A DNA stretch of 64,000 nt from Halioglobus japonicus (GTDB lineage: Bacteria > Pseudomonadota > Gammaproteobacteria > Pseudomonadales > Halieaceae): positions 620,001 through 684,000 of the forward strand of contig NZ_CP019450.1 of the NCBI RefSeq assembly GCF_001983995.1, given 5' to 3'. Shown here in pieces: positions 60,254 to 62,196 of this stretch (within the stretch, counting starts at the first letter, position 1; every line of letters starts with the position of its first letter). A program made the position numbers and the translations under genes. Under the pieces are notes generated by a model. That model had not been told where the DNA came from. It ran no database searches and saw only the letters and a program-made list of their open reading frames with translations.

Positions 60254-60973
60254 ATGCAGCGACCCAGCGGCCGTCAGCCCAACCAGCTTCGCGATATCGA
60301 AATCACCCGCAACTTCACCTGCCACGCCGAAGGCTCGGTCCTGGTGAGCTTCGGCAACACCCGTGTCATCTGTACCGCCTCGGTCGAGCAGGGTGTGCCC
60401 CGCTTCCTGCGCGGCGAAGGCCAGGGCTGGATTACGGCCGAGTACGGCATGCTGCCGAGATCCACTGGCTCACGCATGGGACGCGAAGCGGCCCGTGGCA
60501 AGCAGGGCGGCCGCACCGTCGAAATCCAGCGCCTGATTGGCCGCTCCCTGCGCGCCGCCGTAGACCTGAAAAAGCTCGGTGAGAACACGATTACCATCGA
60601 CTGCGATGTGATTCAGGCCGATGGCGGTACCCGTACAGCTTCCATTACTGGCGCCTGTGTGGCTCTGGTGGACGCCATCAACTACCTCCAGCGCGAGAAA
60701 ATCATTACTACCGATCCTCTGCTGCAGATGATTGCCTCGGTGTCTGTCGGTGTATATCAGGGTGTCCCGGTCCTCGACCTCGACTATCCGGAAGATTCAG
60801 CAGCCGATACCGACATGAATGTCATCATGGGCGAGGACGGCGGTTTTATCGAAGTCCAGGGTACTGCCGAAGGTGCGCCGTTTGCCCGTGAAGAGCTTAA
60901 TGCCATGTTGGATTTGGCCGCGTCTGGTATTGATGGGTTGGTGGCCAAGCAGAAGGCGGCTCTCGCTGGCTGA
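60254..60973 (+). CDS. rph: Ribonuclease PH
   Basis: A 239-residue phosphorolytic 3' exoribonuclease for tRNA 3' ends. It begins [20 protein letters not shown], with [21 protein letters not shown] in two conserved pieces, [20 protein letters not shown], and the C-terminal [16 protein letters not shown]. Frame and length are normal. The 458 bases after it hold structured repeats instead of the usual direct run into the next gene. Confidence 0.97.
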
Positions 60974-61001
60974 TACTCATGGGCTTCGTGGGGTGAAGCC
61001 A

Positions 61002-61117
61002 GTTCGGAATCGCCATGCCACCCTGCGGAACCGCTACGAGCCCATCGATGGGGTCGCTTCGGTGTCCGGCATCCATGCCTCCCGACGATTCCGCAGGATG
61101 ACACGGCGACCCCGAAC
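61002..61117 (-). repeat. Structured repeat element, copy 1
   Basis: A long stem-loop whose motif-sense strand is minus. Arms 61010-61033 and 61086-61109 pair over 24 positions; the only four mismatches are G-U pairs in the minus-strand RNA. A further six-base stem (GTTCGG 61002-61007 with CCGAAC 61112-61117) extends it. The loop has two small perfect hairpins (61068-61079 and 61041-61052) separated by GGACACCGAAGCG. It shares its loop with copy 3 at 61291-61395. Confidence 0.75.
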
Positions 61118-61176
61118 CTCAGTTCCGGGGTCTACGAAGGCGATAGCTGAGAGGTGTAGAGGCTGAAGACTTCTTC

Positions 61177-61244
61177 TGAGACCGTCGAGAGCCAGGGAGG
61201 GCGCGGCCGGCGATCCTGGGCGTCGAAGCGCGCCATGGAATGCT
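61177..61244 (+). repeat. Structured repeat element, weak copy 2
   Basis: Shares blocks with the other copies (ACCGTCGAGAGCCA near 61181-61194 and CGTCGAAGCGCGCCATGGA near 61221-61239) but has an altered centre and no long outer stem that I can see. Probably a degenerate copy. Confidence 0.4.
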
Positions 61245-61290
61245 TGGAACTGACCCTCCAACGAAATCGCGGGGAGAACGATCGGGGTGT

Positions 61291-61395
61291 GGAAGTTGTT
61301 AAGGGCTTTCGAGATCGTCGGGAGCCATGGATGGCGGACGCCGAAGCGCGCCACGGATGGCCTTGCAGCGGTCTCGGAAGCCCTTAACAGCTTCC
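61291..61395 (+). repeat. Structured repeat element, copy 3
   Basis: Arms 61291-61317 and 61369-61395 pair over 27 positions; the three mismatches are all U-G in the plus-strand RNA. The loop contains hairpin A (61324-61335, GCCATGGATGGC), the spacer GGACGCCGAAGCGC and hairpin B (61350-61361, GCCACGGATGGC), then GCAGCGG before the right arm. The loop matches copy 1 closely while the outer stems are unrelated in sequence. Confidence 0.78.
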
Positions 61396-61431
61396 GCACT
61401 GTTAATTCTATGACCTATGAACTCCCGAGCC

Positions 61432-62196
61432 TTACAGCTCGATATCGTAATCCATGATGATCGGCGCGTGATTAGAGAACTCACGGCTCTTATAGATCGC
61501 GCCGTAGTCCACCGCGTACTGCAGACCTTTGGAAATCACGTGGAAGTCTGTGCGCCAGCCGTTGGAGCTGCGGTCACCTTCCGGCCACCAGCTGAACTCG
61601 TCCTGGTCTGAGTTGATTTCGCGGAAGGCGTCGACATAGCCTTCTTCCAGCAGAGAGTTAATCCACTGGCGCTCCTCGGCGAGGAAACCCGGCACCGTGC
61701 TGTTGCGCTCGGTGTCCTGGAGGTCGCCCGGCGTGTGGACGATGTTCCAGTTGCCGCAGATGATGAATTCTCGGCGCTTGTTGCGCACTTTCTGCAGGTG
61801 ATTGCCCAGCAGCTCGAAGAACTCGTTCTTGCGGGCCAGCTGGTCCGCATTGCCCGGTTCGGCATAGGGTGCCAGCAGGCAGCCCACGCTGATGTTTTCA
61901 TAGTCCGCCTGGATATAGCGGCCTTCCATGTCGAAGTCGGCGAAGCCCAGGCCCGTCATGATGGCCTTGGGCAGCTGGCGGCAGTAAATGGCCACGCCAT
62001 TGGCCTTGCCGTCGACGTCGTCAAAGAAATAGGGGTTGTACTCTTCAGGGAAGTAGAGGTTGTCCTGCAGGTCGTATTCCGAGCACCGCAAATCCTGGAT
62101 GCAGATAAAATCTGCGTCCTGCTCTTTCAGCCAGTCGTAAAAACCTTTGTCGGCGGCGTTTTTAACGCCGTCAGCGCTGAAACTGATGATCCTCAT
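61432..62196 (-). CDS. Crc-like protein of the exonuclease III (EEP) superfamily
   Basis: A 254-residue protein with the exonuclease III fold pattern (MRIISFSADGVKNAADKGFYDWL, GLGFADFDMEGRYIQADY in pieces, RREFIICGNWN, SWWPEGD). Catalytic residues are altered: the Glu of LQE is Asp35 in ICIQD, the GDxN Asp is Asn in GNWN, and the SDH Asp is Asn in SNHAP. Pseudomonas Crc, a non-nuclease partner of Hfq in carbon catabolite repression, shows similar losses and sits between rph and pyrE as here. I therefore favour a Crc-like regulator over an active exonuclease III. Confidence 0.75.
   Translation of the reverse strand: MRIISFSADGVKNAADKGFYDWLKEQDADFICIQDLRCSEYDLQDNLYFPEEYNPYFFDDVDGKANGVAIYCRQLPKAIMTGLGFADFDMEGRYIQADYENISVGCLLAPYAEPGNADQLARKNEFFELLGNHLQKVRNKRREFIICGNWNIVHTPGDLQDTERNSTVPGFLAEERQWINSLLEEGYVDAFREINSDQDEFSWWPEGDRSSNGWRTDFHVISKGLQYAVDYGAIYKSREFSNHAPIIMDYDIEL

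Follow-up and report, generated by a model that had tools for sequence, protein, structure and literature searches.

The window, a stretch of 64,000 nucleotides of the genome of the gammaproteobacterium Halioglobus japonicus, contains a 458-bp gap between two convergent genes (from ORFs and profile matches), namely rph, which codes for ribonuclease PH, and a crc-like gene of the exodeoxyribonuclease III family. Within this gap, a palindromic element is present as two intact copies, one on each strand, with a decayed third copy between them (Table 1). Copy 1 and rph face each other with their 3' ends, as do copy 3 and the crc-like gene. In the sense direction, an intact copy opens with AGG and a 5' arm of roughly 30 nt, followed by GTCGGGAG, hairpin A, a linker that ends in CCGAAGCG, hairpin B, AGC, a 3' arm and, last, CCG.

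Table 1. The rph/crc-like gap, its flanking genes and the parts of the element copies, in window coordinates
Feature	Position	Strand	Basis
Copy 1, intact	61002..61117	-	model match C1:680998-681120, 120.4 bits
Copy 1, 5' arm of outer stem	61087..61118	-	stem alignment
Copy 1, hairpin A, GGC-ATGGAT-GCC, CsrA-like ANGGAN hexaloop	61068..61079	-	sequence and alignment
Copy 1, hairpin B, CCC-ATCGAT-GGG	61041..61052	-	sequence and alignment
Copy 1, 3' arm of outer stem	61001..61032	-	stem alignment
Copy 2, decayed, long form with extra GGCCGGCG hairpin, without outer stem	61182..61267	+	motifs
Copy 3, intact	61287..61399	+	model match C1:681283-681403, 121.1 bits
Copy 3, 5' arm of outer stem	61286..61316	+	stem alignment
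Copy 3, hairpin A, GCC-ATGGAT-GGC	61324..61335	+	sequence and alignment
Copy 3, hairpin B, GCC-ACGGAT-GGC	61350..61361	+	sequence and alignment
Copy 3, 3' arm of outer stem	61370..61400	+	stem alignment
rph, ribonuclease PH	60254..60973	+	TIGR01966, 384.8 bits, cut-off 141.5
crc-like gene, exodeoxyribonuclease III family	61432..62196	-	TIGR00633, 185.3 bits, cut-off 99.05

A preliminary description of this DNA had reported two good copies on opposite strands of the gap, and both are present where it placed them. It had given their outer stems as 24 and 27 bp with four and three mismatches, all of them wobbles. The wobble-only character stands, but the arms reach further: the extended stem is 32 bp with seven G-U pairs in copy 1 and 31 bp with five in copy 3, with no other mismatch in either (this extension used scoring in favour of G-U; the count blind to pair type, given below, was done separately). 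The compensatory changes noted in the hairpins are there as well, GGC/GCC becoming GCC/GGC in hairpin A and CCC/GGG becoming GCC/GGC in hairpin B. GGA is present in three of the four window loops, the exception being the ATCGAT loop of hairpin B in copy 1. With 200 dinucleotide shuffles for each test, the fold z-scores were -11.7 (sense) and -8.2 (antisense) for copy 3 and -8.0 and -5.6 for copy 1, and none of the 200 shuffles folded equally well in any of the four tests. Copy 2 had a z-score of -0.7, with 39 of 200 shuffles equal or better, a weak stem score of 7.5 and only a partial covariance-model trace (10.6 bits, E 0.44).

The family was searched with a pattern and then with a covariance model built from 18 copies; the pattern contained ATGGAT with up to two mismatches and may favour intact loops among the H. 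japonicus copies. The model returned 42 matches at E <= 1 in the 4.1-Mb H. japonicus genome, which come to 36 places after removal of six opposite-strand duplicates, the weakest of them with an E-value of 0.008. Thus, the structured repeat family proposed from the window has copies at 36 places in this genome, spanning 94-137 bp each. Beyond it, the element was matched in 35 of 58 genomes (H. japonicus and its relatives), two genomes of the same genus being without a match, and in a survey of the phylum it was matched in 34 of 397 genomes, all from one class; this survey scored nine candidates per genome, so its copy counts are lower bounds. A fuller search of five genomes gave 29 to 92 matches each, opposite-strand duplicates included. 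In a further set of named genomes, the model matched 77 of the 80 stretches on which it was run, out of at least 119 found, and the carriers among the matches listed include Stenotrophomonas, Xanthomonas, Arenimonas, Marinobacter, Shewanella, Rheinheimera, Microbulbifer, Saccharospirillum and several Halieaceae. The exact H. japonicus-type pattern had no match in the named genomes. The relatives and named sets overlap (L085=L224, L084=L214, L096=L192), and a few copies are counted in both. Viral carriage was considered and set aside, as neither of two viral-contig pattern matches was matched by the model. One record labelled as Bacillus subtilis (L208) has an element flank 80% identical to a Stenotrophomonas maltophilia locus and is probably contamination.

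Comparison of the copies predicts the element to be a rod of about 30 bp, with a near-constant length and a nearly free sequence, topped by a three-way junction that carries two short hairpins. The outer stem has a median length of 30 bp in H. japonicus (quartiles 29-30, range 24-37; 35 of 36 copies), 31 bp in the relatives (quartiles 30-31; all 43 copies) and 29 bp in the named genomes (quartiles 27-31; 109 of 117 copies, among the matches listed). Among the 18 aligned copies, the core has a mean pairwise identity of 86%, whereas the 5' arm reaches 47% and its middle part 33%. The stem sequence, described earlier as free, is nearly so; the inner pairs (GAAATC/GGTTTC) and the outer ends (AGG and CCG) keep a consensus. 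The proposed covariation was put to a test: standard pairs make up 92.4% of the pair cells of the 18 copies, and both partners vary in 31 of 42 pairs, in 182 cells, compared to 32-53 cells for slid registers and a value of 182 that none of 500 shuffles reached. The helices of the cap covary too, with two pairs flipped in one copy in the helix enclosing hairpin A, and with G-C replaced by A-U at the foot of hairpin B in two copies. A long form, in which a further GC-rich hairpin (GGCCGGCGNTCC) separates hairpins A and B, is seen in five H. japonicus copies (C1:3172495, 3225682, 3632156, 3657806 and 3926584), in the decayed window copy and also in another genus (L076:1265-1405).

Because covariation alone could come from any process that perfects palindromes, we counted the stem mismatches with an aligner blind to pair type, setting the strand from the core and not from the stem. 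On the sense strand, the G-U:A-C count was 81:5 in H. japonicus (35 of 36 copies), 53:2 in the relatives (43 of 43) and 118:19 in the named genomes (111 of 117, among the matches listed). When restricted to the outer 30 nt, which drops the inner stem that holds a conserved U-G, the respective counts were 63:4 (35 of 36 copies), 50:2 (43 of 43) and 106:15 (110 of 117, among the matches listed). Taken copy by copy, G-U exceeds A-C in 31 H. japonicus, 28 relatives' and 68 named copies, and A-C exceeds G-U in none, 2 of 43 and 6 of 111, respectively, the remainder being ties (named figures among the matches listed). The earlier observation of wobble-only mismatches in two stems thus extends to the genome, A-C being rare on the sense strand. 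This excess of G-U over A-C shows, by comparison of the copies, that the sense strand is selected as a folded single strand. It also bears on the reading in which the palindromes are kept perfect by template-switch correction, so that the covariation is a mutational by-product and the folded strand is not itself selected. Such correction would account for stems that diverge and yet stay paired, but it yields Watson-Crick pairs and has no strand preference, whereas about 16 G-U are observed per A-C on the H. japonicus sense strand, and the U-G near the top of the stem is retained in 14 of 18 copies. We consider this reading highly improbable. In one Marinobacter orthologue pair, five arm positions differ, three as exchanges of Watson-Crick with G-U and two as exchanges of a pair with C-U, with no A-C, which fits drift under selection for pairing. 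The folded sense strand is either RNA or single-stranded DNA, and the mismatch bias alone separates neither, as single-stranded DNA folding also tolerates G-T over A-C. More generally, strand-specific wobble bias can serve as a simple criterion for finding palindromic repeats under selection as a folded single strand.

The hairpin loops were analysed in the copies of H. japonicus and its relatives, with the named set omitted as it had been found with a loop-containing pattern. With gapped cells omitted, these 76 copies show departures in 6 of 597 cells at the fixed hexaloop bases (A, G, G and A), compared to 51 of 291 cells at the two N positions. An unaltered ATGGAT loop is seen in hairpin A of 44 of the 76 copies and in hairpin B of 52, and most of the other loops are close variants. 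The pair closing the ANGGAN loop is C-G in 134 of 140 loops, and the next pair out is CG in 76, AT in 33, GC in 18, TA in 5 and another combination in 4 (n=136). Further, the first two ANGGA motifs are 23 to 27 nt apart in 61 of the 66 copies showing two. CsrA/RsmA is a dimeric RNA-binding protein that recognizes CANGGANG within a hairpin, with a fixed A and GGA and a free N, and one dimer can bridge two such hairpin sites. Judged from sequence, the loop pattern C-ANGGAN-G, closing pair included, matches this recognition consensus. A canonical CsrA is encoded in the H. japonicus genome, which also has another CsrA-like ORF (C1:1720213) of 80 aa that has diverged and carries an insertion. All 33 phylum-wide carriers other than H. 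japonicus possess csrA; among the 58 genomes, H. japonicus included, csrA is found in 54 and the element in 35, and with csrA near-universal this co-occurrence says little. The two carriers without a csrA match are both incomplete: G016 is 66% complete with one element match, and G031 is 93% complete, in 310 contigs, with six. One relative (G051) has nine CsrA-family matches and 31 element matches.

Gene neighbours were taken from ORF calls and not from annotation. The crc-like gene is present in all eight genomes of the genus and adjoins rph in each (by eye), and the model finds the element in this gap in one of the eight, H. japonicus; in one sister genome the two genes are separated by just a few dozen bases. 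Thus, the element was either inserted there in H. japonicus or lost from the others. The intergenic DNA is unalignable between species of the genus (by eye), and the boundaries of an empty site were not recovered. The same gap of another genome of the genus (G001) holds a different palindrome-rich insertion of a few hundred bases without a model match. A gap adjoining metK carries one or two elements with quite different stems in three genera of the family and one metagenome bin (L078, L097, L100, L096/L192 and L256), with ahcY on its other side in the locus read (L078:1500-1786; metK and ahcY recognized by eye from translation). Compared across genomes, the element appears to be a dispersed, insertion-polymorphic repeat of Gammaproteobacteria, and we regard it as new in this respect: in a literature search mostly outside subscription journals, none of the matches listed describes it as a dispersed repeat.

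Of the 36 H. japonicus copies, 21 fall in 10 clusters and 15 are single. Neighbouring copies within 400 bp are predominantly divergent, with their 5' ends facing (46 of 53 pairs, with three convergent and four tandem; one divergent pair was counted twice, leaving 45 of 52 distinct). This pairing does not follow from convergent gene neighbours alone, as all seven pairs in tandem gene gaps are divergent too. Nor does a pair with its spacer behave as the mobile unit: nine H. japonicus spacers share 4 nine-mers compared to 5.4 expected from base shuffles, and arm likeness is 0.43 among clustered copies against 0.39 among others. With no sequence common to the spacers, the unit is the single element and not the pair. 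In Xanthomonas hortorum, a divergent element pair adjoins a match to the Rfam sX9 sRNA (L251:129-567).

These patterns lend themselves to an explanation at the level of DNA, in which a REP/BIME- or MITE-like element has its folded strand recognized by a transposase or another DNA-binding protein through the ANGGAN loops, with no role for RNA or CsrA. The element is indeed dispersed, mostly intergenic and, at one locus, variable in its presence among species of a single genus; the tolerance of G-T over A-C in single-stranded DNA would accommodate the mismatch bias; and the divergent neighbours recall the head-to-head dimers of REPs, as these are described in the available part of one study (PMC3733652). 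On the other hand, the presence of a Y1 transposase shows no association with that of the element (both are present in 21 genomes, the element alone in 14, Y1 alone in 11 and neither in 12; Fisher p 0.42), the copies of 94-137 bp are well apart from the 20-40 bp of REPs, and the loop pattern, with its C-G closing pair, is that of the CsrA consensus. We found an element near just one of 30 Y1 transposase loci, and the H. japonicus Y1_Tnp locus has none. No mobilising enzyme was identified, tyrosine transposases neither tracking the element nor adjoining it at 29 of the 30 loci. The single case lies about 440 bp from a Y1 match of 33 bits (L108:1162-1280). On balance, we hold the DNA-level explanation to be rather unlikely.

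The orientation of the copies raises the alternative of an element for the processing or stability of RNA 3' ends, in which the long hairpin blocks exonucleases or serves as an RNase III site and the GGA loops are incidental. In H. japonicus, 28 of the 34 copies with a gene beyond their sense 3' end face the 3' end of that gene, though only 26 of 42 single copies elsewhere do so. Of the 60 gaps that bear an element, 24 are convergent, compared to 52 of the 308 other gaps (by crude ORF calling, with a few loci repeated). A 30-bp duplex is, moreover, a plausible RNase III substrate. However, this orientation places the sense strand antisense to the facing gene. Within 60 nt beyond the sense 3' end, an A6 run occurs in 12 of 36 H. 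japonicus copies and a T6 run in none, as if the copies were sited beyond the terminator of the neighbouring gene and outside its mRNA. Finally, the loops and their closing pair are more conserved than the stem, which processing would not need. We hold a role in processing at 3' ends to be improbable.

In our favoured explanation, which we consider probable, the element is non-autonomous and dispersed, measures about 120 bp and gives rise to an RNA that is homologous to TwoAYGGAY and binds CsrA. Its copies would have been inserted between genes, in many cases at the 3' end of a gene and in many cases in divergent pairs. Sense transcription of a copy may then come by read-through, when a gene lies on its 5' side, or from the spacer. 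These two sources are favoured by the sense strand being antisense to the gene that it faces; this placement also leaves room for a role at the DNA level, and it counts against the favoured explanation in so far as a 3'-UTR element of the facing gene would not be expected there (28 of 34 H. japonicus copies). In such a transcript, the two hairpins would be well placed for a single CsrA dimer, with the stiff stem presenting the hairpins and keeping the ends of the element together. Each copy could thereby act as a small CsrA trap, as a CsrA site in a 3'-UTR or as both. More broadly, it is conceivable, though doubtful at present, that mobile RNA-rod elements selected as RNA and not as DNA have spread paired CsrA hairpins through many Gammaproteobacteria, so that the tens of transposed copies form a distributed CsrA sponge or an evolving set of sites in each genome; a divergent pair, if this is true, would put four CsrA sites in one place. 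The finding suggests that a mobile repeat can spread binding sites of a global post-transcriptional regulator.

Several known systems can be set beside the element. An intrinsic terminator was rejected, since TTTT occurs within 20 nt past the stem in none of 36 copies in the sense direction and in one of 36 in the antisense. An sRNA gene with a conserved promoter was likewise rejected, the 40 columns upstream of the element holding at most 0.26 bits each. The element resembles REPs in being an intergenic palindrome that often forms head-to-head pairs; the available part of the study cited above describes REPs as intergenic palindromes, often head-to-head dimers, found mainly between convergent or unidirectional genes, with those of the CGTC type having 8-9 bp stems, 4-5 nt loops and a CCA tail (PMC3733652). 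CGTC does stand at the start of the cap in most aligned H. japonicus copies, but the resemblance to CGTC REPs, so far as the available part describes them, stops at this tag and does not extend to stem, loop or tail: the stem of the element has 30 bp, its cap is branched and its end is CCG. REPs are tagged palindromes of 20-40 bp, those of the GTAG type flanking a RAYT gene. A REP of the RAYT-linked kind was also rejected, given that presence is independent of Y1, that 29 of 30 Y1 loci are without the element and that size, stem, loop and tail differ. The preliminary description had set the element apart from ordinary REPs, and the absence of any association with tyrosine transposases in our searches agrees with this. 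Like MITEs, the element is short, dispersed and placed between genes. MITEs, however, conserve the sequence of their terminal inverted repeats, whereas the 5' arms of the element are 47% identical between copies, compared to 86% for the core.

The sRNAs CsrB/CsrC and RsmX/Y/Z also present ANGGA-loop hairpins, which there bind CsrA dimers. They are promoter-driven sRNAs of single loci with many CsrA sites, in contrast to the element, which carries two sites in each of its tens of copies and lacks a conserved promoter. The RsmZ model (RF00166) gave no match above its cut-off in any of 19 genomes, H. japonicus included. Matches below the cut-off mean little, as they occur in 6 of 14 control genomes; one such match in H. 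japonicus (C1:4015146-4015282, 27.8 bits, cut-off 44) may be its canonical Csr sRNA. The available part of a paper on Csr sRNAs of Alcanivorax makes no mention of such a repeat (PMC9788540).

The closest relative is TwoAYGGAY (RF01731), and here the preliminary description, right on the structure, went wrong, mainly in knowing of no described class that matches. RF01731 matches copy 3 over its full length (model positions 1-168) with 32.9 bits and an E-value of 0.002; this is below the gathering score of 43, which makes copy 3 a homologue and not a curated member. The H. japonicus genome has 14 RF01731 matches, all below the cut-off and the best at 39.4 bits, and none of 18 named loci reaches it. 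Among 17 chosen carrier genomes, however, 16 are matched, six of them above the cut-off with up to 52.7 bits. Several eukaryotic microRNA models also match the long stems below their cut-offs (up to 48.6 bits, cut-off 128), so a weak RF01731 match by itself proves little, and the case is made by the over-cut-off matches together with the loops. On this comparison, the element is homologous to TwoAYGGAY. Both combine a long, poorly conserved outer stem with two hairpins bearing loops of the AYGGAY type. The hairpin stems differ, being mostly of 3-4 Watson-Crick pairs in the element (110 of 136), compared to 10 and 15 in the Rfam model line. The Rfam record gives RF01731 the type Cis-reg and places it in clan CL00106, which we take to be the clan of the CsrB/CsrC and RsmX/Y/Z sponge RNAs. 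According to the available part of the 2010 report, TwoAYGGAY was listed from human gut, gamma-Proteobacteria and Clostridiales and marked as probably RNA and probably not cis-regulatory (PMC2864571). Its binding of CsrA was predicted in 2014, and was untested there, in the part of that paper available (PMC4333381). The available parts of these descriptions do not mention multi-copy dispersal, a near-constant stem, a mismatch bias or divergent pairs. For an RNA candidate that dates from 2010 and still has a predicted function only, occurrence as a dispersed repeat across many gammaproteobacterial genera provides a large set of copies for comparison and a tie to the CsrA of the host.
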